Positions 13,901 through 39,636 of a stretch of DNA of 39,636 bases are shown here, piece by piece. The notes beneath the pieces were generated by a model. The model had not been told where the DNA came from. It did no database searches and was given only the letters and a program-made list of their open reading frames with translations. Source of the DNA: a virus; the IMG/VR virus record IMGVR_UViG_3300045941_000406, positions 1 through 39,636 of that record. One strand, written 5' to 3'. The stretch's first letter is position 1; every line of letters begins with the position of its first letter. The translations under genes were made by a program, and so were the position numbers.

Positions 13901-14885
13901 GGTCATTTGTGAAGGCTTCGTTGACGGCAAAACCAGTGCTGAACTGGGCTGTCAGACTGGCATTTCAGCCATATACGATTACACCTTTCAAAACCTGTGC
14001 TTTGATGCCTTTGAAGGCAAGTGGTTCCCCCCTGTACCTGGCCAGCCCACAAGCCTGATAGAATCCCTTCACACCCGCGGTGATTTTCCCCAGGGGTTTG
14101 GCCCTTTGCCCAACACCATTGCCGCGGCTGAGACCTACAACAACTTCGCAAAGGCCATCAACAAGCTGGTGACTGTACGTGTGATGCTGCCAAGCAAGTT
14201 CCAGCAAAGGGAGCTGCGTGGTGAGGAATATCAAAGCGTCATAGCCACCAACCCTGATGGCAGTTACAGACCTTGTGAAAGCAAGCCTGGCCTGCCTGGT
14301 GTCATCTATGAAGGCATAGGCCCTGACCCCACTCCCACACCCTATCGGGACTGGGAGGATGCAGGTGACCCACCAGCCATTGGCACTGGCTACAGCTGGG
14401 ACTATGCGATAGACAATGCCACCCAAGCCTATACCTGCGATGGTGACAAGTGGGTCATCTGGGCTGTCAGAACTTCATATAATTTTAGGTGGACACTGAC
14501 AGACCCTGATGCCTACCTGGCCATTCCTGAATCATGGCGCAGCCAGCTTGATGCAGATGGTTCATTCCTAGCCCATTTCGCCAGCGCCACTGAAGTTCAG
14601 ATAAAGGAGACAGGCCCCTATGAAGGTTCCACTGACTGTCTTGGATCACCAGGATGGTGGCCTGTTGCTACAGGGGTTTACCTGCGCTTTCCAGAAAGCC
14701 ATCCAGTGGTTCAGGATGTTTGCCAGTTCTTCAACAATTCAGGCACCATTCATGCCCCCACGCTGCCAGGTCAGGTGCTGCCAGGTGGCTACAACCTGGG
14801 GCCATGCACTTACAGCGTCATTTCAAGCGCGACCTTAACCCCCATTCCCAATGATGGCATTGCGTTCACTGTTCCCCTCGTATGA
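10902..14885 (+). CDS. Very large tail tip/baseplate-type protein, 1327 aa
   Basis: This is the longest gene in the window. The N-terminal third is rich in aromatic residues and Gly/Pro. There is a jelly-roll-like beta region at about residues 350-475 (VVISLLVESFELESNCTIEV). Two short related repeats lie near residues 610-735: Y-T-V-R-A-V-G-D, then Y-N-G-T-D-Y, D-F, V-Y; and Y-K-V-W-G-N-S-G-K-V-T-Y-N, then F-Q-G-V, D-F, V-V-Y. The C-terminal half contains many Trp/Tyr and scattered Cys. Length and location suggest a hub or tip structure made of adhesion domains. I see no peptidoglycan-hydrolase motif. Confidence 0.7.
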   Translation: MGIAYSKVAEIKSGDPILSNHLAALGNAVNQRLRSGLGDPTYRLVYYADSFARQIRNPDESQFLWPSRSEWLEVYATINPADAQWPVAEAGTAEGINKASIAGEWVFGSQPQTSIEPEDERLLAVPMWAPPGDHPPATAKERWEIGKAQRGGWDPANGALGCPVFDAARKHFAMTRGTLSMHGKSWGGFAPTPGLMPDDNCHDGDSQFAPTPNYELFFSKIGDPATKITFPGTCPNQPGHVAFIQANPPFEYVVGVWDATGTQVVKYVQPDGKPIAFNEWIEGPYEGGNILTKQNGEHLHRVLNHFAAQYRGTNDQRAVVNTWNVHAFDTQRFLETQYLLAPARGTTSGASINVVYPKFELTWSATGQTNIPAGTKLPMVAGGTGSSFTVAQKCVVISLLVESFELESNCTIEVLSDGVRVALVQVSPTKSIDVLVLSAPIAAGKKVEMRVVEDVTFKAINQSTGVSVEVAEVMAYKPWVQDHWLLMRLSGCHHDNVNGMDGWGGDEQAAKLIGTDYFRWGCIQNLRGYASPPGSFAEINTNAGYEAGRRLFRCVRILRPEQLVSYEVTGGKSILVFNRWTTGSGGSPPVWGPGGTPPAETEVQSGDITADARYTVRAVGDAGSNYVTYNGTDYSNLDGFRGVASVPDFTVVGTGKVYLVTQYLPDSELGGATGDCLAGIAPDPGAVPTGQIRWKRNYKVWGNSGKVTYNDQEVNPGQTFQGVQNKTDFSTSGDAVVYELDGIKHTAEPENFTNEWLVGFQFKGFNNKAASIWKPDAYGRFFSFSERCHFYPNSLSLSMTDPRDVMAMRQFAYGDNIWLAPEAPTGYRLALGLNQKFCDESDTDCITRKKNFYKSCRLYEPDLEIESVELVDAPTGDLVKVTMKGRFHYDPDTAPASFLPNPNTWNLTALRNEPYRTTDNALREWLYHKATGINPSIKVGDSAENSNAYTQIDAPYGTVLPHIFFTKLIPIPYADNNNIQDHWDTPFLHDQFQMLELYLRVICEGFVDGKTSAELGCQTGISAIYDYTFQNLCFDAFEGKWFPPVPGQPTSLIESLHTRGDFPQGFGPLPNTIAAAETYNNFAKAINKLVTVRVMLPSKFQQRELRGEEYQSVIATNPDGSYRPCESKPGLPGVIYEGIGPDPTPTPYRDWEDAGDPPAIGTGYSWDYAIDNATQAYTCDGDKWVIWAVRTSYNFRWTLTDPDAYLAIPESWRSQLDADGSFLAHFASATEVQIKETGPYEGSTDCLGSPGWWPVATGVYLRFPESHPVVQDVCQFFNNSGTIHAPTLPGQVLPGGYNLGPCTYSVISSATLTPIPNDGIAFTVPLV

Positions 14886-15120: not shown

Positions 15121-16131
15121 TTAAAAATCCCCCTCAGGGTAAGGCATACAACAGGGCACGGCGCGGAAGAAACGGTTGATCCGTGGAAATTGGTACGTCG
15201 AAACCGCCCATCGTGAAGGAACCCCCGTTTCATAACGGTAATGAACTCCTCCGATAATTCCCCACCGCTTCATGTCCGAGGACCATTCGAATTGCAGTCG
15301 ATGGCCATCGTCGATCTCTGGTTCAATCCAGTATCCGTCCACCCAATGAGCATCAAACGGAAACGACGCAACGTTCATTGGACTGACGACAAGTTTCAGA
15401 TTCAAGTTGTCCAAGCGCTTTATCGATCCGATCTGTGTGATATCGAAAGTCCTTTCTGACCATCCACTTTCATTTGGAGAGGCGCGGACGCGGATCGCGT
15501 ATGTCGCTCTTTCTTCGAAACGGAACGGCACCACCAAAAGCTGATTCGTTTCACCATCAATTAGTATTCGGTTTTTAAACCACTGGATTGAGGTGTGAAC
15601 ATCTTTCGAGGCATGGATATTCGCTTTGACAGTCACCTTGGGGTCATCGGTCTTCCACCAATTGCGGCTAATGGTGGTCGATGACGTGACTACGGTCAGA
15701 AACAGATTGTCGTTGGTGCTACTCCCAAAAGCGTTGGTCACCACAACGCTGTATCGGCCGGCCTGGCGGCTGCCAGGATGTTCTATCACGAGGTGATCAT
15801 TGGTGGCGCCGGGAATCTTTTTGCCTTCAAAAAACCATTGCCATGAAAAGGGGGCCGTACCAGATAACTGATAGCGTGGATCACTTGCGAGTGGCTGAAA
15901 CTTCCCTTTGGGACTAACAAACCAATTTTGGGCAGGATGTTCGAATCCGTCTGGGGATGGAAACAAATGCACTGAATCCCATTCCCATTCGCGGATTGAA
16001 TTTGGTGACATGACCTGGTGTGCCCGATAAAAGTAGTCGTCGTTCAAAGGGCCAGGAGGGTCGCCCGCCAAGCAGGGCATTGCTGTAAAGAGAAGAAATC
16101 TAACCGCCGTGCGCTTTAATCGCTTGTTCAT
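15121..16131 (-). CDS. Secreted Ig-like domain protein (candidate lysogenic-conversion gene)
   Basis: This 336-residue protein begins with a basic stretch and a hydrophobic signal region (AVRFLLFTAMPCLAG). Residues about 85-145 form an Ig-like domain with the Verrucomicrobiota-style wording W-Q-W-F-F-E-G-K-K-I-P-G-A-T, then Q-A-G-R-Y-S-V-V-V-T-N-A-F-G. The C-terminus has a W-G-I-I-G, then R-F-F-R-A pattern, like the terminal strands often seen in secreted proteins of that phylum. It is transcribed against the structural genes and coupled by ATGA to the gene upstream of it on the minus strand. It is probably expressed by the prophage and exported, but this is inferred. Confidence 0.7.
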   Translation of the reverse strand: MNKRLKRTAVRFLLFTAMPCLAGDPPGPLNDDYFYRAHQVMSPNSIREWEWDSVHLFPSPDGFEHPAQNWFVSPKGKFQPLASDPRYQLSGTAPFSWQWFFEGKKIPGATNDHLVIEHPGSRQAGRYSVVVTNAFGSSTNDNLFLTVVTSSTTISRNWWKTDDPKVTVKANIHASKDVHTSIQWFKNRILIDGETNQLLVVPFRFEERATYAIRVRASPNESGWSERTFDITQIGSIKRLDNLNLKLVVSPMNVASFPFDAHWVDGYWIEPEIDDGHRLQFEWSSDMKRWGIIGGVHYRYETGVPSRWAVSTYQFPRINRFFRAVPCCMPYPEGDF

Positions 16132-17348: not shown

Positions 17349-18461
17349 ATGCGCGTCACCGTTCGCAGGGGAAAGCACAAAGGAGAGAACAAGTGGATCC
17401 TCGACTGGGAAATTGCCGGCGTTCGCAAGCGGCGTTTCTTTGCGGATCGCGGCCTGGCTGATGAGGCTAAGAACCTCCTGCTTGCTCAAGGCATTGTGAA
17501 TGCCGAGGAGTTCCGCGCGCTCTCGGAAAAGGCTCGATTGGATTTGGCCTCACTCTATCTCAGGGCCCAGGCTGAGAAGGTTGACCTCGGAAGGATCCTC
17601 GAGGGTGCTATCAAGAATCCTTCGACCAGGAATACTGCAAGGAAGTCGATGCCGGAGATTCTGGCTGAGTGCATCTCCGCAAAGCGCGCCGCGAATCTCT
17701 CGAAGCAGTACGCCAAGCATCTCCAGCTATTAGTTGGTCAATTCCTCCGCGGACGGGAGGCGATGCCGATTGGTGAGGTAACGACTGCCCAACTTGAAGA
17801 GTGGGCAAACAGCCGCGGCTGGTCTCCTCAAACTCGTGCAACGGTACTCGCTAGACTGTCTGCATTTTTCGGATTCGCGAAGCAAAGGAAGTACATCGCA
17901 GAGAATCCGGCGGATGCTCTAGAGAAGGTCAAAATTCACAAGCGGCCTCCGAGAATCCTTTCCGCTGAACGAGCCGATCAACTCATTCGGCATGCAACGA
18001 AGGACATGCTTGGATACTTCGTGCTAGCTCTGTTCGCTGGAGTGCGGCCGGAGGAAACCGAGAAGGTTCGATGGGAACAGATCGACTTGGAGAGAGGTCA
18101 TCTCTGGTTGAATGCACCGGAAACTAAGATGGGCAAGCGTCGCTTGGTACACCTCTCTCCTAATGCAATCGAATGGCTGCGGCTAGTTCGGAAGAAGAAG
18201 GGAGCCGTTAGCCCTTCGCACAGTACAATTCGACGCCGGCGGAGAGAACTTTGCAAAGCTCTACGTTTAACGTGGCAGGCCGATATTTTGCGGCACACTG
18301 CTGCATCAATGATGCTGGCCAGAGATCAGGATGCAGCCAAGGTTTCCTTGGAACTAGGCCACTCAGTTAAGGTGCTTTTGACCGTTTACCGGGAGTTGGT
18401 AACTCGGGAGGAGGCGGAAGAGTTTTTTCAGATTGCACCGGTTGTTGCAGCAGTTGCTTAG
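17349..18461 (+). CDS. int: Tyrosine integrase (phage-type site-specific recombinase)
   Basis: This 370-residue protein has an N-terminal arm-binding-type region, a core-binding domain at about 100-185 (SAFFGFAKQRKYIAENPAD) and a catalytic domain. Visible catalytic positions are R233 (GVRPEE), K260 (ETKMGKRR), R315 (ILRHTAAS), H338 (ELGHS) and nucleophile Y347 (VYRELVTREEAEEFF). The residue three before R315, usually His, is Asp312. The start is ATG 17349, directly after the arm sites and tRNA-like core, so it should integrate the phage into a tRNA gene. The YRELVT ending resembles integrases common in Verrucomicrobiota and Planctomycetota. Confidence 0.92.
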   Translation: MRVTVRRGKHKGENKWILDWEIAGVRKRRFFADRGLADEAKNLLLAQGIVNAEEFRALSEKARLDLASLYLRAQAEKVDLGRILEGAIKNPSTRNTARKSMPEILAECISAKRAANLSKQYAKHLQLLVGQFLRGREAMPIGEVTTAQLEEWANSRGWSPQTRATVLARLSAFFGFAKQRKYIAENPADALEKVKIHKRPPRILSAERADQLIRHATKDMLGYFVLALFAGVRPEETEKVRWEQIDLERGHLWLNAPETKMGKRRLVHLSPNAIEWLRLVRKKKGAVSPSHSTIRRRRRELCKALRLTWQADILRHTAASMMLARDQDAAKVSLELGHSVKVLLTVYRELVTREEAEEFFQIAPVVAAVA

Positions 18462-20463: not shown

Positions 20464-20469
20464 TCGGCC

Positions 20470-20525
20470 GCCGGGGCAAAGACTCGTTTCGGTGATCCCC
20501 AGCACTTGACGAGCTTTGCCCCGGC
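20470..20525 (+). other. Long hairpin between SSB-like and nuclease genes
   Basis: GCCGGGGCAAAG (20470-20481) pairs with CTTTGCCCCGGC (20514-20525). After a single bulged A, CTCGT (20483-20487) pairs with ACGAG (20509-20513). The loop is about 21 bases. There is no T-run after it, so it is not an intrinsic terminator; it may stabilise mRNA or act in regulation. Confidence 0.7.
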
Positions 20526-20540
20526 AACTGGACCTAAAAT

Positions 20541-23576: not shown

Positions 23577-23604
23577 AATATCCATTCTGCAATCCTTCGT
23601 GCAC

Positions 23605-25461
23605 ATGGACCTGCTCTCTCTGGACAGTTCTTCAGATCAAAGCGTTAGACACACGGGTCTCGCGTCGGTCGAAGAATGGAATTCCAGCAAACGAGCGGGG
23701 TCGATAGCGATCGATTTCGAAACAACCTACAGCAGCAGTTTCAACGTCAAACAGCTCGGCTCATGGGCGTACAGCCAGGATTCCCGATTCAACGCGCTGT
23801 TGGTCGCAGTGGCAGATGAAAACCGAACTCTGGTCTGTCCGCCCGAGGAATTCCCATGGAAATCGATCGATGGTCTCGAGTGGGTTTCGCATCACCGGGA
23901 TTTTGACCTGGCTGTTTGGCGTCGGCTGACTGCAGATGGCATCATCCAGTCTAGAGGCCCCCGCGCCTGGCACTGCACTGCTGCCCTGGCCGCGTACCTC
24001 CAATACCCTCGAGATCTGGCATCGGCCGCCAAGGCAATTCTCAACGTGCACCTGGACAAAACCCCCCGGTCGCGTGCGAAAGGAAAGACTAACGATCCCT
24101 CCCTGTTGCAATCTCTCATTCCTTACGCGGCGAAGGATGCCGAGGCCTGCCTGGCAATCTGGACCCGCTTGGAACGCTATTGGCCGCCGGAAGAGCGAAA
24201 GCTTTGCCGACTTACCTCCGCAATGGGCGAACACGGTGTCGCCATTGATTGGGAGGCCCTGGATCAGGCCCAGGCGGCATTGCGCACGACGATTGCTGAA
24301 GCGACCGCAGCGTTGCCCTGGCAACCTCCGCTTTCCATCAAGGAATTCGCCGACGCCTGCAATGGGCGTGGAATCAAACCTCCGTCCAGTACGGCAGTAA
24401 CAAGCCCCTCCTTCCTCAAATGGATCGAGACCACATCTGACGATGTTTCCAGGCACTGGGTCGAAACGATGCAGGACCTTCGATCGGCCAACCGCACGCT
24501 CAAGGTCCTCGAGGCGATGCAGGCCCGAAGAAAACCCAATGGGCGGATGGCCTACGAACTCAAATACTTTGGAGCATCCACTGGCCGCTGGTCAGGTGGC
24601 GGCGGATTGAATCTCCAAAACCTGAATCGGAACGGATCGGACGAAGTCACACTTCGGAGCTTGATTATCGCACCGCCCGGGCACTTGCTTGGCATCGTCG
24701 ACTACTCCCAGATTGAAGCCCGGGTCCTCCTGTTTCTTGCTGGTGACCACGACGCGCTGCAGATGCTTCAGGAATACCCGGCCATGGACCTGTACGAGGC
24801 CCACGCGCGCTTGACGATGGGTTACACGGACCAGGAACCCCTTAAAACCCACTGCGAGTGTACAGGATCATCCATGCGACACCTGGCGAAGGCTCGCGTA
24901 CTCGGTTTGGGGTTCGGATGTGGTGCTATGAAGTTCATCGCAGTGGCAAAAGCCCTTGCAGGTATGGAAATCAGTTTTCCGGAATCCCAACGGATTGTTT
25001 CCAGTTTTCGGGAATCGAATCCCAAAATCGTCAACCTTTGGAGGAAACTACAGCGCGCTTGTGAGGCTTTCGTGGGAGGTACCTACCGGCTTCCCTTGCC
25101 AGCGCATCAATTCGATTCAAAGGCCAGGCGCCATCTCTACTACCGGGATATTGCCCGGCACGATGAGGAGCTTACCGCGGTAGTGGGCGGAGTTCGCGTT
25201 CGGGTTTATGGCGGGCTCCTGGCTGAGAACTGGACGCAAGCTACCGCTCGAGATGTCCTGTCGACCGCCTGGCTCCGGTGCGTAAGAGCGGGATTCAAAC
25301 CTGTCTTGAGTGTGCACGATGAGTTGCTCTTTGAATTGCCGGAAGCAACCGCCAAAAACGATCTCCAGCGCATCATCTCCTTGATGCAGGAGCCCATCCC
25401 CTGGGCGCCAAATCTCCCCCTTCGCGCGGACGGAAAACTTTCAATCAAATACGAAAAATAA
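23605..25461 (+). CDS. polA: Family A DNA polymerase with 3'-5' exonuclease domain
   Basis: About 618 residues from ATG 23605 (GTG 23599 would add two). The N-terminal DEDD exonuclease shows AIDFETT (Exo I), HHRDFDLAVW (Exo II) and YAAKDAEACL (Exo III). The polymerase domain has motif A VDYSQIEARVL, motif B RHLAKARVLGLGFGCG and motif C SVHDELLFE. There is no 5'-3' exonuclease domain. With primase, helicase and SSB-like genes nearby, this is the phage replicative polymerase. It lacks a clear Shine-Dalgarno sequence. Confidence 0.96.
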   Translation: MDLLSLDSSSDQSVRHTGLASVEEWNSSKRAGSIAIDFETTYSSSFNVKQLGSWAYSQDSRFNALLVAVADENRTLVCPPEEFPWKSIDGLEWVSHHRDFDLAVWRRLTADGIIQSRGPRAWHCTAALAAYLQYPRDLASAAKAILNVHLDKTPRSRAKGKTNDPSLLQSLIPYAAKDAEACLAIWTRLERYWPPEERKLCRLTSAMGEHGVAIDWEALDQAQAALRTTIAEATAALPWQPPLSIKEFADACNGRGIKPPSSTAVTSPSFLKWIETTSDDVSRHWVETMQDLRSANRTLKVLEAMQARRKPNGRMAYELKYFGASTGRWSGGGGLNLQNLNRNGSDEVTLRSLIIAPPGHLLGIVDYSQIEARVLLFLAGDHDALQMLQEYPAMDLYEAHARLTMGYTDQEPLKTHCECTGSSMRHLAKARVLGLGFGCGAMKFIAVAKALAGMEISFPESQRIVSSFRESNPKIVNLWRKLQRACEAFVGGTYRLPLPAHQFDSKARRHLYYRDIARHDEELTAVVGGVRVRVYGGLLAENWTQATARDVLSTAWLRCVRAGFKPVLSVHDELLFELPEATAKNDLQRIISLMQEPIPWAPNLPLRADGKLSIKYEK

Positions 25462-25867: not shown

Positions 25868-26776
25868 GTGGCTCGGCTTCCATTGCCACTATCCCGGGCT
25901 GTCCAGGAGGAGCTCCTGAGAGGACCCATAACCGGTGTGGATGGTGGATGCCACCGTTGGCTCGCCCGGATCGCGGGCGGAGTCCAAGCTTCCATGTCCG
26001 CGGCGGCCTGTTACGAACTCCTGCGCACAGCCTGTCACCGTTTCGTTCAGCATCGGGAAATTCCTGACCGCGAGATCCAGGAGGCCGTCAAACTGGCCTA
26101 TTCAAATCCCAATGGCTCATTACCGCGCATCCCCCGCATTGACTGGCCCACCTATAATCGAGCCGCGATCGAACGGGTTCTTGCCACCACACCGCCCGCG
26201 TTTTCCCCAAGACCCCTCGATGTTACTACGTCGACCCTCCTGCCATTGCTGTTTCCAACTGGGTCGCTCTTGTGCCTCGGGCTGCAGAAGAATGTCGCTC
26301 TGATCAGGCCCTTGGAAGAATGGCTGCCCACGGCTGAATTAAACCAGTTCATCGTTCCCAGCCCAATGCTGAAGCCGGCCTGGGCCGAGAACGGAAAAAC
26401 AGTTTCCCGATGCAACAGAAACACGGGGCCCCGGCACTACATCATCATCGAGTTTGACCGGGATTTTCTCCGGGACAAAATGCACCAAATCCAACTCCTA
26501 AGCTGGTTGAGCCGAATCATCCCAATTTCCATGGCGGTCGATTCAGCTGGCAAATCTATCCACGGCTGGTTTTGCACCCATCAGAGCAGGTTGAATAGGC
26601 AGGTCCACTTTTTTGCCGCTGCATGCCTCCTGGGCGCTGACGAGAACATGTGGCCTCGCGCCCAATGGTGCCGACTGCCGGGCGGCATGCGGCCCCGGGA
26701 AGGAAATCCACCAGCCCGGCAGCAAATTATTCATTTCGATCCACAAGAAACAGCGGTTGCCCGATGCAAAAAATGA
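25868..26776 (+). CDS. Primase-like replication protein (AEP-like core)
   Basis: This 302-residue protein has a GTG start preceded by a CCGGAGGAAC ribosome-binding site. The C-terminal half has RHYIIIEFDRDF, then P-I-S-M-A-V-D-S-A-G-K-S-I-H-G-W-F, then WCRLPGGMR and RQQIIHFDP. This order (acidic strand, sSGKShHhW, RLPG) is that of archaeo-eukaryotic-type primase domains in mobile elements. It overlaps the helicase gene by 4 bases. A primer-making or origin-binding role is likely. The N-terminal half is unassigned. Confidence 0.7.
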   Translation: MARLPLPLSRAVQEELLRGPITGVDGGCHRWLARIAGGVQASMSAAACYELLRTACHRFVQHREIPDREIQEAVKLAYSNPNGSLPRIPRIDWPTYNRAAIERVLATTPPAFSPRPLDVTTSTLLPLLFPTGSLLCLGLQKNVALIRPLEEWLPTAELNQFIVPSPMLKPAWAENGKTVSRCNRNTGPRHYIIIEFDRDFLRDKMHQIQLLSWLSRIIPISMAVDSAGKSIHGWFCTHQSRLNRQVHFFAAACLLGADENMWPRAQWCRLPGGMRPREGNPPARQQIIHFDPQETAVARCKK

Positions 26777-28071
26777 ATCCTCGAAACTCAATCAATGGCG
26801 CTGTCCTGGCCCCGGAAGATTGGTCGGAATACCTCAATCGCTTTTTCTCGGCGGAAGCCGTCAAAAGCATTGAAAATGCCGTGGCTGCTGTTTTTGAACC
26901 CCCGCCAGGTGGAGCCGTCGATGAATACTATTCCGCTCTCGAATCCACAGAAGATCCAGGCGAACTGATCGAGCATCGATTCCTTTGCCGCGGCGCTACC
27001 TGTCTCTTGGTCGGCCCCACCGGCGTAGGCAAATCCAGTTTTGTCACCCAACTGGCCTTTCACTTCGCTGCAGGACTCGAGTGCCTCGGTTTTCGGCCGG
27101 TCAAACAATATCGGTCGACCGGCATGAAGGTCCTCCTGGTCCAGGCTGAGAACGATCGGTTTGATATGCTCGAAATGGTCAACGGCATTCGAGCGGGAAG
27201 CGACGCCATCGCCAACGATACCCGGGCCGCCAAACAACTGCAGATTTATAACCTCCGCGGCGTCACAGGAGAACGATTCATCCAGATCTTGAATTCCTTG
27301 CTCGCTGAATGCGGGCCATTTGACCTGGCCATCATCGACAATGCCCTAGCGTACCTGGGCACCGATGCCAAGGGCCAGAAAGAGGTTGGGCATTTTCTAC
27401 GCGAACTCCTAGATCCCGTCGTTCAGAAACACAACGTGGGGCTAATCCTCTGCCACCACTCCAACAAACCACCCACAGGCCGGGAGAAACCCGAGTGGCA
27501 AGCTGGGGATTTTGCTTACATAGGTTCTGGCTCCAGTGAATGGGCTAACTTTGCGCGCGCGATTATCGCGCTCAGAAACATTGGTTCTTCTGAGATCTTT
27601 GAACTGATGGTTCCAAAGCGCGGTTCACGGCTACGCTGGAAAAATGGCGAGGAAAATACGACTCGAACTCATATCCGTCATGCCCGTGAAGCAGGAAAGA
27701 TCTATTGGGAAGCAGCCTCGGCGGAAGAAATCCAGGCTCTTGAATCCGAGAACCAAAAAGTGGGGCGCCCAAAGTCCGCGCCTGATCCGGCTGAGGTTCT
27801 CCATTGCATTGATGCAAGACCCGGTCTTTCAAGAAAAGCGTACACCGACATCTTTGGCGCCATCCACGGAGTTTCAAGACGCACCTTGGATGGATTAATC
27901 GTCAAATGTCTCGATAAGGGATGGCTCAGATACCGGGAGAAGAGTCTTTTCAAGTACTACAACGTCACCGAAGGCGGGCGAAATTATGCAAAAGAGCGTC
28001 CGAGTGTCTTTGATTGGCCTGCGCATTGGCAAAACCTTGATGCTGCGAAAGATACGGATGAGAAGCCATGA
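26773..28071 (+). CDS. RepA/RecA-like replicative ATPase (helicase) with C-terminal winged helix
   Basis: Start ATG 26773 is chosen for its ATGA overlap with the primase gene; the frame is open earlier. The 432-residue product has Walker A GPTGVGKSS (81-89), an LLVQAENDR segment (121-129), Walker B FDLAIIDN (183-190) and a LILCHHSNKP sensor-type motif near 222, as in hexameric RepA/DnaB-type AAA_25 ATPases. The end (about 350-410) is a winged-helix region (SRRTLDGLIVKCLDKGWLRY). The iteron region follows directly. Probable replicative helicase. Confidence 0.88.
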   Translation: MNPRNSINGAVLAPEDWSEYLNRFFSAEAVKSIENAVAAVFEPPPGGAVDEYYSALESTEDPGELIEHRFLCRGATCLLVGPTGVGKSSFVTQLAFHFAAGLECLGFRPVKQYRSTGMKVLLVQAENDRFDMLEMVNGIRAGSDAIANDTRAAKQLQIYNLRGVTGERFIQILNSLLAECGPFDLAIIDNALAYLGTDAKGQKEVGHFLRELLDPVVQKHNVGLILCHHSNKPPTGREKPEWQAGDFAYIGSGSSEWANFARAIIALRNIGSSEIFELMVPKRGSRLRWKNGEENTTRTHIRHAREAGKIYWEAASAEEIQALESENQKVGRPKSAPDPAEVLHCIDARPGLSRKAYTDIFGAIHGVSRRTLDGLIVKCLDKGWLRYREKSLFKYYNVTEGGRNYAKERPSVFDWPAHWQNLDAAKDTDEKP

Positions 28072-28078
28072 ATTCCAC

Positions 28079-28287
28079 TAGGCGCAAAAACGTTTTTGCC
28101 CCTAGGAGGCATAGGCGCAAGGCGCAAAAACCCTTTTTTGGGAGTTTTTGCGCCTAAGCTAAGTCCTTGAATACCAATGGTTCAATAGGCGCAATAATTA
28201 CCCTTAAGCGCAAAAACTAAATCAATAGGCGCAATAATGTGCGTGTGTACCTACGGTACACACACACGCACATTTGCGCCTTGCGCT
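28079..28287. other. Probable replication origin: GGCGCAA iterons and palindromes
   Basis: Within 210 bases there are about nine copies of GGCGCAA or close variants. TAGGCGCAA lies at 28079, 28112, 28186 and 28226, others at 28121 and 28207, and reverse copies at 28148, 28274 and 28281. CAATAGGCGCAATAAT is repeated exactly twice. Three palindromic structures are present: GCAAAAACGTTTTTGC near 28083-28098; AGGCGCAAAAAC (28120-28131) with GTTTTTGCGCCT (28144-28155); and a GTGCGTGTGTACC / GGTACACACACACGCAC arm pair around 28239-28272. The site follows the helicase gene. Iteron-based origins are well known; use here is inferred. Confidence 0.75.
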
Positions 28288-28304: not shown

Positions 28305-28691
28305 GTGCGGTTTACCCAAGCAGAGTACGAACAGTATCAAGCCAGGAGAGCTGGCAAAATCATGGCTTTGGGAAAGCCTGCTTTACCCGGATCCGGTGCA
28401 CCGCTTGAGGCAAAAGTCCGGAGCGAGGTGCTTGAGTACTGCCGGACCCAGGGCTGGATCGTATTCAACGGGACCACCGTGCGGGCGACGGGCCGAACGA
28501 TTGGTGAACCGGATTTAACCGTTGTTGCGGACCTGGGTTCGGTTTATTTCGTCGAGTTGAAATCGAGGACCGGCAAGTTGCGGCCGGAGCAGGCTGCGAT
28601 CGGCGCCTGGCTTTCGAAGCTCGGACACAAGTGGCTTGTCATTCGTTCTCTTTCTGAATTCATTGAACAAACCCAGATTCAGGAGCCGTGA
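28305..28691 (+). CDS. VRR-NUC domain nuclease
   Basis: The 128-residue product (GTG start) has the VRR-NUC pattern: E-A-K-V-R-S-E-V-L-E-Y at about 44-54, G-E-P-D-L-T-V (D at about 75), and VELKSRTGKLRPEQ (E-x-K at about 89-91). This stand-alone nuclease family acts on branched DNA (Holliday-junction-like substrates) and is frequent in phage replication modules. It lies next to the origin. Its stop overlaps the next start. Confidence 0.85.
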   Translation: MRFTQAEYEQYQARRAGKIMALGKPALPGSGAPLEAKVRSEVLEYCRTQGWIVFNGTTVRATGRTIGEPDLTVVADLGSVYFVELKSRTGKLRPEQAAIGAWLSKLGHKWLVIRSLSEFIEQTQIQEP

Positions 28692-32444: not shown

Positions 32445-33227
32445 ATGAAGGGCAAAAAGGCCATGGGATATCAGACCCTGGCTGTGCGTGCGAAGCAGTA
32501 TGGTGTGAGTATTTCCACTGTTCGCAGGTGGCAGATGGCCGGTCGGCCTATCAACAATGAAAAAGCACTTGCTGTTGACTTGGCCAAAGGGAAAGGCATC
32601 ACCAAGCGGCTGATTGAAAGGGCCAATCAAATTCTGGCAGGGGTAAAGCCCCAGACTGCTGAAGATGAAGCCAGGATGGAAGCTGCCCTGGCCAAGACCA
32701 GCATCGACATGGTGGCAGACCTCGAGCGGGAGGCTGCTCGATTCAAAAGGGCACAGGACCAGGCTGAAGCGGAGGGTGACCTGGGCAGAGCCGATGCGAT
32801 GCTGGAAGCCAGGATGAAGGTCTATAAGACCGTGGTGGGAATCCGCAAGGAGCTGCGTCGGCTGGGTGAAGACCAGGCTAAGAACATCACCCGGAATGAG
32901 TTTGAACGCATGGTGGCAGCCATGGGCCTCCACACTTCGAGCGCAATCATTGCCCTGAGTGATCGTCTGGGTGAGTTGCTGTTGGATAAAAGCAGGGTTG
33001 AACAGGTGGCTGAAGTGCTGCAGCCGGCCATGGTCAAGGGGCTATTCCTGCAGCCCTTCATTGCTGCCATGGATTTTGCTTCCGATTCAGGGTTGCCTGC
33101 GTGGGTTGTGGATGCCTACAGGCAGGCTTTTGGTGATGCAGTGGGCAACGGTGATGAAATCTTCAATGAAGCCACTGGGGTTAATATCAACACTCGAATG
33201 GGCCAGCAGAATGGTAATGCTGGATGA
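32445..33227 (+). CDS. terS: Terminase small subunit (probable)
   Basis: This 260-residue protein has an N-terminal HTH (LAVRAKQYGVSISTVRRWQMAGRP) followed by a long charged helical part (ARFKRAQDQAEAEGDLGRADAMLEARMKVYKTVVGIRKELRRLG), the layout of DNA-recognising small terminases. The large subunit gene overlaps its 3' end. It should choose the packaging site and hand DNA to the motor. Family identity is by architecture and context. Confidence 0.75.
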   Translation: MKGKKAMGYQTLAVRAKQYGVSISTVRRWQMAGRPINNEKALAVDLAKGKGITKRLIERANQILAGVKPQTAEDEARMEAALAKTSIDMVADLEREAARFKRAQDQAEAEGDLGRADAMLEARMKVYKTVVGIRKELRRLGEDQAKNITRNEFERMVAAMGLHTSSAIIALSDRLGELLLDKSRVEQVAEVLQPAMVKGLFLQPFIAAMDFASDSGLPAWVVDAYRQAFGDAVGNGDEIFNEATGVNINTRMGQQNGNAG

Positions 33228-34989
33228 CCAGAGGTTTTCACCTGTCAAGTTCCCGCAGCTGCCCGACATCGCCAACACAGTGGATCGCAGGCAGGGCTGC
33301 ACCTTCATTCTGCGATTCCCACCGCAGACGTTTAAAAGCCTGTTTATGCAATTGCGTCTGGCCAGGACCATTGCATTGGGGCCACAGCGTTCTTTGTGGT
33401 ACTGTGTGACTGGGAAGGATGCGGCTGACTTCTCCGATGAAAAGTTCACACCATTGCTTCAGTCATGTCAGTGCATTCTATCCCGTCTTCCACATGACCC
33501 CCACGCGCGTGGCACCAAGGCACTGTTTAAGTTCAAAGCTCCTGTTTCACTGCTCAGTGCAGAAGTCAAAGCCCACAGGAACCAGCGTTCAGGGAAAGAT
33601 CTTTATTTGGATGAAGCGTGGCAATATCCCCACGGGGCATTGGCCGAGATCATTGCCAGATCAGACAGCTTTGAACACACCAGGAGAATCCTGATCGCAG
33701 AAACTGGTCCAGATGAAGGGGGCGAAACTGACCTGCTGTTCAATCGCAGCCCGCAGAAGACCTGGTTGGTGGCCTGCACGCTTTGCAACAAGCGTGTCGA
33801 ATTGGTGTTTGGTGACGCCACCAGTGAAGAAGGCATCAAATGGGATAAGAACGACAGGACGTGCAACAGTGAAGGGTTCTGGAATTCAGAACTGGCAGCC
33901 AGGACAGTCAGATGGGTGTGCCCAGCCTGCAAGGGGGTCATTCGCTATTCCCAAGCCACGTTGCAAGTCTTGAATGATCCAGCACGGGGGGCTGGGTATG
34001 AAGTCAGGAACCATGAACCTGATCCCCTGGTGGAAGGATGGACAGCCAATGCATTCTGCTTTCGTGATTGGCGGCATCTGGTGACTGAATGGCTTGATGC
34101 ATCCAACGCCAAAAGACTGGGTGAGCTGAACCTGCTGGAAGAATTCACGCGTAAGAAGTTGTGCAAGGCATGGTCACCCTTGATGCACTTCACCACCAAG
34201 GTGGAATATCCCATTGGTGACTACAACTTGAAGCAAGACTGGGATGGTGAGTTGACCCACCCTTATTGGGGCTTCAAGTGCAGGTTTGTTTCAGTGGATG
34301 TTCAACAAAACGACTACTGGTGTGTATGCAGATCCTGGGGCAAGCATGGCAGGAGCAGGCTGCGTGGCTTTGCACGGTGCTGGTCCGAACCTGAAGTGGC
34401 AGACTTCGTGAAACAGATGGGGGTTGACCCAGCCTTGGTGTTTATGGATTCAGCCTATGACCCGAAAGATCCGGACAGTAAGGGTGCACTGTGGGGCAGG
34501 ACCATGCGCACCTGCGCAGAGTTTGGTTATGTAGCAGTCAATGGTGTTTCTGAAATGGGCTTCAAGCATGGTGATGGTTCCGTCAAATTATATAGCCCAG
34601 AACGGAAGATTGATGCCTGGCAGGGTACCCAGCTTTTTGGCAGGAAGAAACGGGTGCTGTTGTTCAACTACAGCAGCCGCGGTTCAAAATTTCTGCTGCA
34701 CAACCTGCGCACACAAAAGGGTGAAGATGGGTTGGCCAGATGGACAGTGGCAGCCGATACCCCGCAGGAATACCTGAAGCAAGCCTACGCTGAACGGCTG
34801 CGGAAAAAGAAGAGCTCGAAGGGCCACAGCTACTGGGAGTGGTACCAGGTAGCAGACAACCATGCATTTGACTGCGAATGCATCCAGGTGGTGGTTGCAT
34901 ATATGTATTCCATCATTGGGGGAGAGGGTGCAATCGGGGCTGCTGAAGGTGACAGGTCCTCGTCAGACCCCGCCGCCGTTGGGTCATAG
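33211..34989 (+). CDS. terL: Large terminase subunit, GpA-type
   Basis: Start at ATG 33211 or 33217 (about 590 residues). The product has an atypical Walker A, PPQTFKS (35-41 from 33217), a Walker B LYLDEAW (129-135), a Cys4 zinc-like insertion (CTLCNK, then CPACKG), the first nuclease acidic strand SVDVQQNDYW, FMDSAYDP and the C-terminal HAFDCECIQVV, all in the order of GpA-type packaging terminases. The canonical GK(T/S) Gly is replaced by Phe. It cuts and translocates DNA into the procapsid. Confidence 0.9.
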   Translation: MVMLDDQRFSPVKFPQLPDIANTVDRRQGCTFILRFPPQTFKSLFMQLRLARTIALGPQRSLWYCVTGKDAADFSDEKFTPLLQSCQCILSRLPHDPHARGTKALFKFKAPVSLLSAEVKAHRNQRSGKDLYLDEAWQYPHGALAEIIARSDSFEHTRRILIAETGPDEGGETDLLFNRSPQKTWLVACTLCNKRVELVFGDATSEEGIKWDKNDRTCNSEGFWNSELAARTVRWVCPACKGVIRYSQATLQVLNDPARGAGYEVRNHEPDPLVEGWTANAFCFRDWRHLVTEWLDASNAKRLGELNLLEEFTRKKLCKAWSPLMHFTTKVEYPIGDYNLKQDWDGELTHPYWGFKCRFVSVDVQQNDYWCVCRSWGKHGRSRLRGFARCWSEPEVADFVKQMGVDPALVFMDSAYDPKDPDSKGALWGRTMRTCAEFGYVAVNGVSEMGFKHGDGSVKLYSPERKIDAWQGTQLFGRKKRVLLFNYSSRGSKFLLHNLRTQKGEDGLARWTVAADTPQEYLKQAYAERLRKKKSSKGHSYWEWYQVADNHAFDCECIQVVVAYMYSIIGGEGAIGAAEGDRSSSDPAAVGS

Positions 34990-34994
34990 GCCCT

Positions 34995-35025
34995 CTACGG
35001 TTTACCTCAGCACCAATTAGGTGTG
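34995..35025 (+). promoter_or_regulatory. Head-gene leader element, copy 2 (before connector gene)
   Basis: CTACGGTTTACCTCA at 34995-35009 precedes a small hairpin (GCACC 35010-35014 with GGTGT 35020-35024, loop AATTA). GTG at 35023 lies 28 nt after the element start, exactly as in the other two copies. Confidence 0.6.
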
Positions 35026-35340
35026 ATGGCATGCGGATTTGTTCCAACGGACTCTGGGAATGCCTATGCGGGGTGGTCCTGCCAGGCTGTCAGGGATGAA
35101 CTAGCGAAGGTTGATGAAGCCCTGGCCAACCAGCCGGCCGTGGGCGTGGGGCAACTAACGGGAGCGAGTCTGAACGGCAAAAGCTTTACCTTCAGCGATC
35201 CTGGTGGTGGTTCTGGTGGCAATTCATTCACCAACCTGAAGCTGCGCAAAATCGAGCTACAAAAAGCTCTGCAATGGTGTGACCCCCGATTCCCAGGCCC
35301 GAGCAGCAAAGCTGTATTCGTTTTTAAAGGGGGTTGCTGA
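35023..35340 (+). CDS. gpW-like head-tail joining protein
   Basis: The GTG at 35023 (next codon is ATG 35026) opens a 105-residue product. It has an N-terminal helix (SCQAVRDELAKVDEALANQ), a Gly-rich beta part (NGKSFTFSDPGGGSGGNSF) and a C-terminal helix (LKLRKIELQKALQWCDP), the arrangement of gpW-type small connectors. It lies between large terminase and portal, the usual gpW position in lambda-like phages. Confidence 0.7.
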   Translation: MMACGFVPTDSGNAYAGWSCQAVRDELAKVDEALANQPAVGVGQLTGASLNGKSFTFSDPGGGSGGNSFTNLKLRKIELQKALQWCDPRFPGPSSKAVFVFKGGC

Positions 35341-35399
35341 CCCTGTCCCACCATGCATGTCAATCCTAACCAGACCTGGGTGGGCAAAAGGCAAATGGT

Positions 35400-35437
35400 G
35401 GCCCCCTATGGCTCCGTTGCCGGGGTTGTAGGGGGCC
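35400..35437 (+). promoter_or_regulatory. 9-bp stem hairpin before the portal leader
   Basis: GGCCCCCTA (35400-35408) pairs perfectly with TAGGGGGCC (35429-35437) around a 20-base loop. It adjoins the leader element, with one base shared. No T-run follows. It may insulate or control portal translation. Confidence 0.6.
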
Positions 35438-35466
35438 TATGGTTTACCCCAACACCTTTAGGGTGT
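35437..35466 (+). promoter_or_regulatory. Head-gene leader element, copy 3 (before portal gene)
   Basis: CTATGGTTTACCCCA at 35437-35451 precedes a small hairpin (ACACC 35452-35456 with GGTGT 35462-35466, loop TTTAG). GTG 35465 lies 28 nt after the element start. The 15-mer is identical to copy 1. Confidence 0.65.
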
Positions 35467-37063
35467 GGCTTCAGCGTCTGTTTTGGTTGACCTGCATGGT
35501 GACCCCTTTCCTCCTGTAGCAGTGAACGGGGGGGCAAAAGGCGTGCAGCCCTCCTGGTGGGGTGCTGGTGGTTATCTGTTTAACACCACCCCTGCGTCAC
35601 CACAAAGGAAGTGGCGCCCGCAGTTGTTGGCTGATGCGTGCAGGATGCTTCCTGCCAATCACCACAGGGAATTGCTGAGTGATGCACGGCACATTTACAC
35701 CTGCGGCAATGGCGTGGTCGCTGGTGCTTGCCACAAAAAAGCGGACTACACCATAGGGGATGCATGGGTGCCTCAGTATCTGGGCCAGGATTCAGCCTAT
35801 CGCAAGGTGGCTGAACCCTACGTATGGCTGTGGTTCAGGCAATGCGAGCTGCGGGGGTTGCCATACACTGGGAACAGAGTTGCATGGCTTTCAAGTCTGG
35901 CACTGGACAGGGATGGTGACTGTTTTTGTGTCCTGACAGTTGACCCTGACACTGGCCGGCCGGCGTTCCAGTTCTTTGAAGCGCACAGGATCACGAGCCC
36001 TACTGGAGTGTCCCTGGTTCCAGATGGTCCCTACAAGGGTGCCACCATGAAGAATGGCGTGGCCTATGACCGTTTTGACAGGCCCATAGCGTACAACCTG
36101 GTTCCTGACAATTGGGTGTGGGGGTCAACACCAGTCTACAATTGGCTTCCTGCCTGGGCAGTCATTCACATCTTTGACCCGCGGTGGTTCACCCAGGGAA
36201 GAGGGGTTCCTTCAATCTGCTATGGCACCTTCGACTGGTATGACATAGGGGCGATCTGTGACGCCGAAAAGATTGGAGTGCTGGCAAACAGCAGCATCTC
36301 GATCGTTCAGAAGAACGACACAGGCATCCATGACACTACCCCTAGTGAAATAGCAAGGCGGGCAGCAGCATGGTGTGAAGCACCAGGCAGCCAAGCGTGC
36401 AAGCCACACATTGAAATGCTGGAGAGTGGCCAGATTCGGTACGTACAGACGACCGGGGAGATTCAAAGCCACAAAAGCGACAGGCCCAGCAGCACCTTCA
36501 ATGGCTTTTTAGATCACATCCTGCGTGGAGCATTTGCTGGGATGGATTGGCCCTTTGAGGTTGCGCGGGACATGTCAAGCGTAGGGGGTGCGGCTGTCCG
36601 CGCGGTGGTCAACCAAGCCCAGCGTTCAGTTAACAGCAGGCAGGCAGTGCTGCGCGCGGCGTTCACCAATGCCTTGCTGTATGGCATAGCCAACATGACC
36701 GATGCAGGCGAATTGCCTGAGACAGTTGACTGGTTCAACTGGGGCTTCACTACACCGCCCAAATTCAGTGTTGATGTTGGCAGGGATCGGGCAGATCAGC
36801 GTGCAGACCTGGCAGTGGGCACTGTGACCCTCACTCAGATTGTGGCTGATAACGGTGGTGACGTTGAAGCCCACCTGCGGGTCAGGGCCAGGGATTACAA
36901 GCTGGCCATGCTGATTGCAAAGGAAGAAGGCGTGCCAGTTGAAGTGATGTATGAACCAAGGCAAGCCCTGGGCGGTGCCCCTATTGAAGCTGACCAGGTA
37001 TCTGAAGAGGAACAGCAAGACCCAGAGATTGTCACTGATGGTGGCGCGGAGGATCTGACATGA
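35465..37063 (+). CDS. Portal protein, lambda-type
   Basis: The 532-residue product (GTG start) has the recurring features of lambda-type portals: an N-terminal helical and Trp-rich part, a stem region with FFEAHRITSPTG and YDRFDRPIAYNLV, HIFDPRWFTQGRGVP (a common portal signature, usually H-x-F-x-x-x-R-x-x-Q-x-R-G-x-P), and a C-terminal helical crown (VNQAQRSVNSRQAVLRAAF). It forms the vertex channel through which the terminase packs DNA. The start is set by the leader element. Confidence 0.92.
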   Translation: MASASVLVDLHGDPFPPVAVNGGAKGVQPSWWGAGGYLFNTTPASPQRKWRPQLLADACRMLPANHHRELLSDARHIYTCGNGVVAGACHKKADYTIGDAWVPQYLGQDSAYRKVAEPYVWLWFRQCELRGLPYTGNRVAWLSSLALDRDGDCFCVLTVDPDTGRPAFQFFEAHRITSPTGVSLVPDGPYKGATMKNGVAYDRFDRPIAYNLVPDNWVWGSTPVYNWLPAWAVIHIFDPRWFTQGRGVPSICYGTFDWYDIGAICDAEKIGVLANSSISIVQKNDTGIHDTTPSEIARRAAAWCEAPGSQACKPHIEMLESGQIRYVQTTGEIQSHKSDRPSSTFNGFLDHILRGAFAGMDWPFEVARDMSSVGGAAVRAVVNQAQRSVNSRQAVLRAAFTNALLYGIANMTDAGELPETVDWFNWGFTTPPKFSVDVGRDRADQRADLAVGTVTLTQIVADNGGDVEAHLRVRARDYKLAMLIAKEEGVPVEVMYEPRQALGGAPIEADQVSEEEQQDPEIVTDGGAEDLT

Positions 37064-37503
37064 GCGGGGCTTGTGGATGCGGTGGGGCTGCTGCGGTTTG
37101 CCAGCCGTGGTTTGATGCGTGGCAGGGGGCTGAATTGCAGTTGGAATTTGAAGCCAGGGTCAGTGAACAGGGGCAGCCACTGGATTTCACCGGGGCCACC
37201 GCCACTTGTGTGTTGAAGAACAACCTCAATGACCCTGTTGAAGCTGCTGTGCTGACTGCTACCACTGAAAATGGCGGCATCCTGAACCTGAAGCCAGAAA
37301 CGGGTAAGCTGCACGCAATCTTCACTGGTGATGACCTGGCAGAATTGTCTGCATGGACCTGTGGTTATCCCTTCAGGGAATATTACTCACAGTTTGCTGT
37401 CAGGCTGGCCAGTAACCAGGTGGTCACAAGTGCCCTTTACAAAGTGAACCTGTGGGCAGGCACAGCCATGGCCCCGGCCGCCATTCAACCCTGTGCAGCA
37501 TAA
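37060..37503 (+). CDS. BppU-like baseplate/fibre N-terminal protein, 147 aa
   Basis: ATGA overlap with the portal stop. A Cys/Gly start (MSGACGCGGAAAVCQPW) is followed by beta-type text: LEFEARVSEQGQPLDFTGATATCVLKNN, ILNLKPETGKLHAIFTGDDL, YYSQFAVRL. From memory the Q-P-L-D-F-T-G-A, then L-x-I-x-x-x-D pattern is that of the N-terminal Ig-like domain in BppU-type baseplate proteins. It is probably an anchor for fibre proteins. It lies before the Ig-domain protein and the fibre gene. Confidence 0.55.
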   Translation: MSGACGCGGAAAVCQPWFDAWQGAELQLEFEARVSEQGQPLDFTGATATCVLKNNLNDPVEAAVLTATTENGGILNLKPETGKLHAIFTGDDLAELSAWTCGYPFREYYSQFAVRLASNQVVTSALYKVNLWAGTAMAPAAIQPCAA

Positions 37504-37508
37504 TTCCC

Positions 37509-38279
37509 ATGGCGATTGATACAATTTACAGCACCACACCTGGGGCAACTCAAGTGCCTGTCACTTCTTATGGCACAAGCTGTCAGGGGGTGCAGGTGGG
37601 AAGTCCATGGACCGTGGTCAGGCCAGTGTTCAAAACCACCATGGTGGGTGGGCCACCAGTTTTTGACGTGCAGCCGCAGGGACTGGAACTGCCAGCGGGC
37701 GGCACTGCTGTCTTTACCGTGGCTGTCAGTGGCTTTCAGCCAATCACCCTGCAATGGCGAAAGGATGGCATTGCCCTGGCCGGCGAAACTGGCACCACAC
37801 TGACTATTACCAACGTGGATTCCAATGACGCCGGCACTTATGACTGCGTGGCTACCAACACTGCTGGGGTTACCACATCCAACCCCGTTGAATTAATCAC
37901 TGAAGGTCAGGCTCTATTCGCCATCTACCTGGGCAATGCAGGGATTAATTCCTTCCCTGCGTACACACCCAACCAGATCAAAGCCCTGAAACAGTCACTG
38001 CCCCAGGTGAATCCAGTGCTGCGAGGTGAATTCGATGGCTCGTATGAGATTTCAGCCCCTGAAAGTGGCCAGAATGAATTCAGGATCATTGCCACTCCTG
38101 AATGGTTTGTGGATGGCACCCCAGTCTTCCGGTCTGCCGGGGCAGTGCTGCCCATGGAACTGGTCCAGGATGACCTCGTGATAGATGGCAGCATGTATCG
38201 GGTCTACAGGACCATAAGCAGGTCTTCAGGCGATTTCACAACAGCTGGCAATACAGCAATCAGTGTGATTGTGACTTAA
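37509..38279 (+). CDS. Ig-like domain virion protein, 256 aa
   Basis: ATG 37509 is preferred over 37452, which overlaps the upstream gene. Residues about 55-135 form an Ig-like domain: Q-P-Q-G-L-E-L-P-A-G-G-T-A-V-F, then L-Q-W-R-K-D-G-I-A-L-A-G-E-T, then D-A-G-T-Y-D-C-V-A-T-N. The C-terminal roughly 115 residues are a second beta-rich domain (NEFRIIATPEWFVDGTPVF). The fibre gene begins one base after its stop. It is likely a virion surface or baseplate adhesin. Confidence 0.7.
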   Translation: MAIDTIYSTTPGATQVPVTSYGTSCQGVQVGSPWTVVRPVFKTTMVGGPPVFDVQPQGLELPAGGTAVFTVAVSGFQPITLQWRKDGIALAGETGTTLTITNVDSNDAGTYDCVATNTAGVTTSNPVELITEGQALFAIYLGNAGINSFPAYTPNQIKALKQSLPQVNPVLRGEFDGSYEISAPESGQNEFRIIATPEWFVDGTPVFRSAGAVLPMELVQDDLVIDGSMYRVYRTISRSSGDFTTAGNTAISVIVT

Positions 38280-39636
38280 ATGAGACCCTTTTTTCGTTAT
38301 TCGGCGGGGTGGCTTGTTCTCTGTGTCTTTTGTCTTCTGGCAAATACAGCCACAGGGCAAGTCACCCCGTCTTCCTACCCCTACGCAAAGCCCAGGCCGA
38401 CCAATGGGCTGACCCCGCCCAACCTGATCAGGTATTCGCAGACCATGGCCCCATCAGCCTATGGGAATGAAATGCCCATCCTGTGGTCAATAGACGTGGC
38501 TGGTGGCCTGCAATCGCGATTGAACGCGGCTGACAGGCTGGCCATGAATCCATTTTGGACCCAGGAAGGAGCCATTGTTTATGATGCATCCGACCGAAAA
38601 TTCTATGGGGTGGATACTGGGCTGCTCGCCAACAAACCGCTTTTTACACTGGATGGATTGTGGCTGGGAGGATCGAGCAATATCTATTCGATTGATGGCG
38701 TTCTGACGAGTCCGCGCACAATCCAATTCGGAACCAATACATTGAGTTTCCTGGCCAATGGCCCGGTGTATTCCAACGGAGTATTCACGATTTTTGGATT
38801 CAAAAGAACCGAGATCGGCGCGGCAACGAACCTCCTTTATTCTTCTGAAGAATTATCTCTGGGGGCCGGTCAGCGTTTGAAGCTTTCGGGTCCTGCAGAA
38901 TTTGGTGGAACTGCAACCAACGGTCATGTCTGGACCCGAATAGGAACCGGGGGTGAAGGTGATTGGCGTTCGCTTCCCGCTCAGACAACAGATACCAGCA
39001 TTTACAAAAACGATGGGACGATTACAGGTGAACGGACGGTCGGATTGGGAAGCAATCGACTGATTTTCAATAGTCCGGGCACTCTCTACTCGAATGGAGT
39101 AGTCCAATTTTTCGGACTCAAGTCATTGCTGTCATCTGCAGCAACGAATCTCATCTATTCCTCGGAGGAATTGAACCTGGGAGGCGGCAGGGTAAAGCTT
39201 TCAGGTCCCGCCGAATTCGCTGGTACATCAACCAACGGTCATGTCTGGACCCGGATAGGAACCGGGGGTGAATCCGATTGGAGACCACTTCCTGCACAAA
39301 CAGAAACAGTCGACACGAGTATTTATAAAAATGATGGGGCAATCACAACCGATCGCACATTCAGCCTTGGAAGCAATCGACTGATTTTCAATAGCCCAGG
39401 CACTCTCTACTCAAACGGAGTAGTCCAATTCTTTGGACTCAAGGCATTTCAATCTTCTGCAGCAAGTAATGTCATTTATTCCTCGGAGGAACTGAGCCTA
39501 GGAGGCGGGCGGGTGAAGCTTGCGGGGCCTACCGAATTTGGAGCAACAGCACAGAACGGACACGTCTGGACCCGCATTGGACCTGGCGGGGAATCGGATT
39601 GGCGCCCGGCCGCGGGGGGGACGGGGAGCGCGACCA
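38280..39636 (+). CDS. Modular tail fibre (secreted-type N-terminus, repeat modules), 3' partial
   Basis: The product opens with a hydrophobic signal-like N-terminus (SAGWLVLCVFCLLANTATG), unusual for a virion protein. From about residue 134 it has repeated modules of 106-107 residues: I-Y-x-N-D-G, S-L-G-S-N-R-L-I-F-N-S-P-G-T-L-Y, V-Q-F-F-G-L-K, Y-S-S-E-E-L-x-L-G-G-G, then G-H-V-W-T-R-I-G. Three module starts lie at about 38682, 39000 and 39321. The frame runs off the window end and the next module appears at its beginning, one base out of phase if joined directly. Probably the shaft of the host-binding fibre. Confidence 0.8.
   Translation, partial: MRPFFRYSAGWLVLCVFCLLANTATGQVTPSSYPYAKPRPTNGLTPPNLIRYSQTMAPSAYGNEMPILWSIDVAGGLQSRLNAADRLAMNPFWTQEGAIVYDASDRKFYGVDTGLLANKPLFTLDGLWLGGSSNIYSIDGVLTSPRTIQFGTNTLSFLANGPVYSNGVFTIFGFKRTEIGAATNLLYSSEELSLGAGQRLKLSGPAEFGGTATNGHVWTRIGTGGEGDWRSLPAQTTDTSIYKNDGTITGERTVGLGSNRLIFNSPGTLYSNGVVQFFGLKSLLSSAATNLIYSSEELNLGGGRVKLSGPAEFAGTSTNGHVWTRIGTGGESDWRPLPAQTETVDTSIYKNDGAITTDRTFSLGSNRLIFNSPGTLYSNGVVQFFGLKAFQSSAASNVIYSSEELSLGGGRVKLAGPTEFGATAQNGHVWTRIGPGGESDWRPAAGGTGSAT
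38682..39636 (+). repeat. Tandem 318-321 bp fibre modules
   Basis: Modules begin near 38682, 39000 and 39321, and a further one starts near base 31 of the window. Long stretches are nearly identical in DNA (for example around 39049-39120 and 39373-39440), which suggests recent duplication or recombination between modules. Confidence 0.75.

Follow-up and report, generated by a model that had tools for sequence, protein, structure and literature searches.

The window, i.e., the whole stretch of DNA analysed here, is an entire IMG/VR record of 39,636 bases, in which no sign of a closed (circular-complete) molecule was found. Judged by its genes, which include those encoding an integrase (17349-18461), an exonuclease, a family A polymerase, a terminase and a portal protein, its source is a temperate tailed phage. 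Matches to Hoc-like/Ig-like head or tail decoration proteins lie on opposite strands at 15121-16131 (-) and 37452-38279 (+), and a 1,327-aa reading frame among the structural genes (10902-14885) is without any PHROG match. The genes upstream of the repeats described below form a replication operon, encoding in order a family A polymerase, a 127-aa protein, a 302-aa protein with an AEP fold and an AAA_25 ATPase that is a putative helicase. The genes concerned are:

23599-25461, plus strand: family A DNA polymerase gene, also in the operon
25868-26776, plus strand: putative primase gene (302 aa), with a helical N-terminal domain and an AEP catalytic fold (from a structural model and fold alignment)
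26764-28071, plus strand: AAA_25 (RepA/DnaB-like) putative helicase gene; the C-terminal winged helix is at about 27790-28009
28305-28691, plus strand: NERD/VRR-NUC-like nuclease gene, directly 3' of the proposed origin

The 302-aa protein is without a family match. An earlier model built from 7 sequences was poor, gave a weak fold search and was dropped for a model built with 23 homologues (pLDDT 87.8), for which Foldseek alone also returned no significant match. Residues 118-295 of the latter model align with cyanophage S-2L PrimPol, the closest solved structure (Z 10.7, 3.6 A, 157 residues), and with RepB' of RSF1010 (Z 10.3, 3.5 A, 148 residues, 10% identity), followed by eukaryotic primases, LigD polymerases and CAPP. 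E195, D197, S230 and H232 are invariant across 24 sequences of the protein and presumably sit where AEPs carry motifs I and II. Based on a second look with VIA-align and on these conserved residues, the modelled 302-aa protein is very probably an AEP primase carrying a helical domain at its N-terminus. For the putative helicase, AAA_25 was found in all 12 homologues searched, and PaaX, HTH_27 and MarR-type models match several of them, in agreement with a C-terminal winged helix. Region 342-415 of the helicase profile also weakly matches a solved putative metal-dependent transcriptional regulator, and no PDB helicase was among the matches of the profile search.

The original prediction described about nine GGCGCAA-type repeats, an exact 16-base repeat and three inverted repeats between a helicase and a nuclease gene. 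The repeats do lie between the stop codon of the AAA_25 ATPase gene (28071) and the start of the nuclease gene (28305), and all nine are present, seven of them exact and two with one mismatch. All three inverted repeats were confirmed (28078-28105, of which the arms abut, 28120-28155 and 28227-28281), and an exact direct repeat, TCAATAGGCGCAATAAT, was found at 28182 and 28222, although its length is 17 bases and not 16. The features of the cluster are:

28080-28087, plus strand: iteron 1, AGGCGCAA
28096-28103, minus strand: iteron 2, AGGGGCAA, one mismatch; with iteron 1 it makes the inverted repeat 28078-28105
28113-28120, plus strand: iteron 3, AGGCGCAA
28120-28127, plus strand: iteron 4, AGGCGCAA
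28148-28155, minus strand: iteron 5, AGGCGCAA; with iteron 4 it makes the inverted repeat 28120-28155
28187-28194, plus strand: iteron 6, AGGCGCAA, inside the 17-nt direct repeat TCAATAGGCGCAATAAT (28182-28198)
28206-28213, plus strand: iteron 7, AAGCGCAA, one mismatch
28227-28234, plus strand, and 28274-28281, minus strand: iterons 8 and 9, both AGGCGCAA, inverted and forming the basal stem of the large hairpin
28227-28281, plus strand: large hairpin, the strongest in the window, with a counterpart in all 25 loci compared below

All seven exact copies of AGGCGCAA in the 39.6-kb record are within 28080-28281, and whole-window shuffles contained 1.73 copies on average, six at most and never seven. 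The large hairpin consists of the basal stem of inverted iterons, an inner stem, a 4-nt 3' bulge and an ACC-TAC-GGT apex, and 28227-28281 is the lowest-energy 70-nt window among the 7,914 scanned across the record (z -5.5). Given seven exact copies against 1.73 expected and the most stable 70-nt window, the description of the repeats is correct and exceeds chance. The second-strongest hairpin of the record (20466-20535, z -4.8) is found between a gene end at 20463 and the start of the exonuclease gene at 20541, while a strong hairpin at 38301-38370 (z -3.5), soon after a gene ending at 38279, is a possible terminator.

A GC-skew inflection had been suggested as a check on the site. In the window, the cumulative GC skew has its minimum at 27,476, 0.6 kb before the repeats, with negative skew before and positive skew after it, although the genes around the minimum all point the same way. 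This part of the expectation stood; in other contigs the turn at the site was not consistent, so GC skew was given little weight and was dropped as a general test for origins.

Relatives were reached through the polymerase and through the primase alignment, and include viral contigs L023-L031 and prophage loci L037-L054 in MAGs that, with few exceptions, carry the labels Verrucomicrobiota, Lentisphaerae or Kiritimatiellaeota. No relative was found when the viral contigs were searched directly with the window helicase alone, or by the exact palindrome pattern. The detailed analysis covered the 25 loci in which both the helicase and the flank 3' of it are present, comprising the window, viral contigs and prophages from Verrucomicrobiota and relatives. 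For one of these loci, L025, no match to the primase or to the helicase was found among 50,697 phage records. Another set of relatives, L006-L022, shares the terminase and portal region (window 32445-37063; 36-43% identity), and the primase was absent from the five of these records searched, some of which are fragments. The phages with the common replication module carry other terminases (about 25-30%), a case of module mosaicism.

A hairpin follows the helicase stop codon in all 25 loci, with its apex 40-271 nt past the stop and folding z values from -2.7 to -10.7. An ungapped hairpin score missed several of these hairpins because the 3' arm is often bulged, and energy folding was therefore used. 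The apex is typically a C-run, a loop of 3-5 nt (TAAA, TAC, TTTA, TTACA, TATAA, TTC, GAA or ACA) and a G-run, and in all 23 distinct loci the C of the apical C-G pairs is on the 5' side as read on the helicase-coding strand. Polarity of the bulge was rejected as a strict rule, as more unpaired bases are on the 3' side in 16 of 23 loci and the reverse holds in six. The basal stem is wholly different between lineages and in most loci repeats that locus's own iteron. In most loci, copies of the hairpin-arm sequence are also present in the stretch that separates the helicase gene from the hairpin (20 of 25 loci at p<0.05), and the iterons are thus lineage-specific: AGGCGCAA in the window and GGTCGGAAA, GGGCAGAAA, GAATCGAA, CATCAAA, GCCATAAC, AACTCGTATC and others elsewhere. 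The same layout with other repeat letters is found 3' of the same helicase gene in more than 20 uncultured relatives. Conservation of the repeats beside the homologous helicase gene, which the original prediction had made a test of itself, is borne out for position and architecture, with the repeat sequence changing by lineage.

No conserved motif other than the start of the next gene was found 3' of the hairpin. A ACTTACAAC motif about 60 nt before the apex in about nine relatives is barely above chance overall and is absent from the window. Elements near ACTTACAAC at this fixed distance occur in L026, L043, L044, L045 (two copies), L025, L039 and others; in L026 and L043-L045 the element pairs with an upstream GTAAGT in a second, smaller inverted repeat.

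In a plain alignment of 22 relatives, the stem pairs include 57 doubly changed pair cells, compared with 29.8 in shuffles, none of which (0 of 500) was as high. Sliding the partner along the alignment reduced all three measures, namely the percentage paired, the number of doubly changed cells and the covariation score. RNAalifold recovered the apical pairs from the hairpin alignment and nothing more. Co-variation extends to the inner-stem pairs, which lie between iteron and apex and would not be needed by a mere double-strand binding site.

A later search of 387 genomes of the phylum yielded further loci. In all six of those with the layout assessed (L096, L097, L101, L103, L106 and L107), a 9-12-mer is present in three or more copies at the end of the helicase gene or just past it; 8-mers were seen three times in 23 of 212 control windows. 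The region of L097 was placed by eye because its ATPase frame ends early. A long hairpin is found in five of the six, although in some cases the best control window was at least as strong, so the layout rule held in these loci for iterons and, with one exception, for the hairpin. Not all of these more distant loci retain the apical C-run. In several later loci with more distant primases, no helicase was recognised by the Walker A rule, and some with other helicase types (L099, L109 and L110) gave no clear hairpin. The distantly related primase gene of L106 adjoins one for a large Walker A protein of a different kind, which is followed by GTGACGCAA repeats and no strong hairpin; the helicase partner and the hairpin may therefore vary together.

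Across 22 loci, iteron similarity is correlated with winged-helix identity given the ATPase (partial Mantel r 0.24, p 0.018), and with the ATPase given the winged helix at r 0.17 (p 0.06). The helicases form two deep clades, between which ATPase identity is flat (0.48-0.54), and the six cross-clade pairs with common iterons rank at the top of their rows by winged-helix identity; over the full set of cross-clade pairs, the trend is weak but suggestive (rank test, rho 0.19, p 0.08). Among 11 loci with the same downstream gene, winged-helix identity is at least 0.64 in all eight iteron-sharing pairs and at most 0.53 in all 47 others; these thresholds were picked after the data had been seen, and about three independent swaps lie behind the separation. 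Identities of the ATPase and of the downstream gene overlap freely between the two kinds of pair; the low downstream-gene values of L051 are uninformative because its downstream frame is broken. For instance, the iterons of L025 and L027 differ, at identities of 98% for the ATPase, 84% for the downstream gene and 47% for the winged helix, while L024 and L028 have the same iteron at identities of 48% for the ATPase and 67% for the winged helix.

In these comparisons the iteron sequence follows the winged helix, not the ATPase domain or the downstream gene, and there appear to have been three or more moves of a cassette of winged helix and iterons between conserved flanks. Joint transfer is partly expected because the winged helix and the iterons adjoin, and linkage accounts for part of the co-variation; the equally close downstream gene does not follow the iterons. 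The co-variation supports the prediction that the C-terminal domain of the helicase recognises its cognate iterons. Four related prophage replication loci of a single MAG, JAKQDD01 (L037, L039, L040 and L041), have four different iterons and winged helices. Such a pattern would be expected if co-resident prophages need different origin specificities; alternatively, several strains may have been binned together.

A hairpin directly after a stop codon could instead be a transcription terminator or an RNA regulatory hairpin 3' of the helicase gene, with the repeats being secondary, and TAC or TTC loops closed by C-G could give UNCG tetraloops in RNA. However, no T tract is found 3' of the large hairpin, the terminator scan makes no call there, no Rfam family reaches its gathering score for the hairpin, and several variably oriented iterons and their match to the winged helix would be left unexplained. 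We consider this explanation improbable. An operator array, at which the winged helix represses the downstream nuclease gene or operon, is given an equally small chance. In its favour, the winged helix is of PaaX/MarR-like type and a downstream reading frame begins no more than about 100 nt from the apex of the hairpin, but this winged helix shares a chain with a replicative-type ATPase, the site is 3' of the helicase gene rather than ahead of the operon, the element is constant while downstream genes differ among lineages, and compensatory change keeps an inner stem outside the iterons that a double-strand operator does not need. Palindromes and repeats are common to attachment, packaging, partition and rolling-circle nick sites, any of which is less probable still, given that the integrase gene (17349-18461) is 10 kb and the terminase gene (32959) 4.7 kb away, that the context is one of helicase, primase and polymerase genes and that the iterons track the helicase winged helix. 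Among the replication-region genes scanned, no rolling-circle Rep nickase was found.

We therefore propose, with good confidence, that the region 28080-28281 is a replication origin of a temperate tailed phage, predicted to be bound by the winged helix and to include a single-strand hairpin site. The iteron origin beside a RepA-like helicase thus remains the best reading of the site, with an AEP-fold protein as neighbour and with iterons and hairpin recurring in the relatives examined. In the proposed mechanism, the winged helix of the helicase would bind the iterons and so bring the helicase to the origin, after which ATP-driven assembly would open the duplex. The hairpin would then fold from the exposed strand (or as a cruciform), the AEP primase of the phage, brought in by the helicase, the hairpin or both, would make the first primer, and the phage family A polymerase would extend it. 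Comparison among loci supports the location and the recognition, while opening, folding and priming are modelled on RSF1010, pRN1 and SaPI Rep. The job of the hairpin, perhaps that of a structured single-strand site for primer synthesis, is the least certain part, and we give its folding and priming roles about even chances.

The IncQ plasmid RSF1010 has an iteron oriV with ssiA and ssiB, where RepA unwinds, RepC binds the iterons and RepB' primes beside a hairpin (PMC4434180, PMC4234260). The phage replicon resembles it in the AEP primase of RepB' fold (by fold alone), in an AAA_25 family ATPase that is a predicted helicase encoded by a separate gene, and in iterons and a hairpin at the origin. 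In contrast to RSF1010, the winged helix is fused to the helicase and no separate RepC-like initiator is found among the operon genes; each origin has one large hairpin (25 loci; lesser inverted repeats exist) and apparently not an ssi on each strand; the helical domain precedes the catalytic domain, whereas that of RepB' follows it, at an identity of about 10%; the phage has its own polymerase; and its iterons are short and in both orientations.

The site was also predicted to be unlike classical plasmid or lambda origins, which is partly right. Lambdoid iterons are inside the initiator (O) gene, whereas the window iterons come after the stop codon at 28071. Close functional analogues nevertheless exist in SaPI Rep/ori, P4 alpha, the RSF1010 ssi and the pRN1 stem-loop. 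The alpha protein of phage P4 has an SF3 helicase. Its winged helix binds origin repeats, as is predicted here, but its primase is of Toprim type and in the same chain (PMC4234260), whereas the AEP-fold primase here has a separate gene. The C-terminal domain of SaPI Rep recognises an iteron origin just 3' of its own gene (PMC7581432, citing Ubeda 2007), and both SaPI Rep/ori and SCCmec Cch2 share with the phage an origin-recognising helicase with an iteron origin directly 3' of its gene (PMC7581432). According to the parts of that source drawn on here, Cch2 is a D5-family helicase and not AAA_25, inverted repeats are dispensable for its binding, and no large, oriented and structure-conserved hairpin is described for either system (PMC7581432). 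The plasmid pRN1 needs a stem-loop 3' of its replication gene in order to replicate, and pRN1 and BIP-1 share with the phage an AEP primase, a C-terminal winged helix and a stem-loop origin 3' of the replication gene (PMC4234260), of which the structure is kept and the sequence is not, as is also found here. Theirs, however, is one fused protein with an SF3 helicase, and their origins have a large loop and no iterons (PMC4234260), whereas the phage has separate genes, an AAA_25 ATPase, a 3-5 nt loop and iterons. The proposed origin would thus act as a blend of those of RSF1010, SaPI/P4 and pRN1: each feature has a known parallel, and the combination fits none of the families tested exactly.

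More tentatively, and with the balance somewhat against it, the loci may represent a replicon family, not present in sequenced phage isolates, of phages from Verrucomicrobiota and related phyla, in which an iteron-bound hairpin would be the single-strand initiation site for an RSF1010-like primase. Its specificity would be changed by swapping winged helix, iterons and hairpin stem between conserved flanks, possibly keeping related prophages of one host compatible. For a family of Verrucomicrobiota phages and prophages whose primase and helicase, as sampled by L025, are without match in 50,697 phage records, these results name a probable origin and the protein that likely reads it. With the natural cassette swaps, the choice of origin by helicase-fused winged helices can readily be tested, and the structurally conserved hairpin opens single-strand initiation in tailed phages to direct testing.
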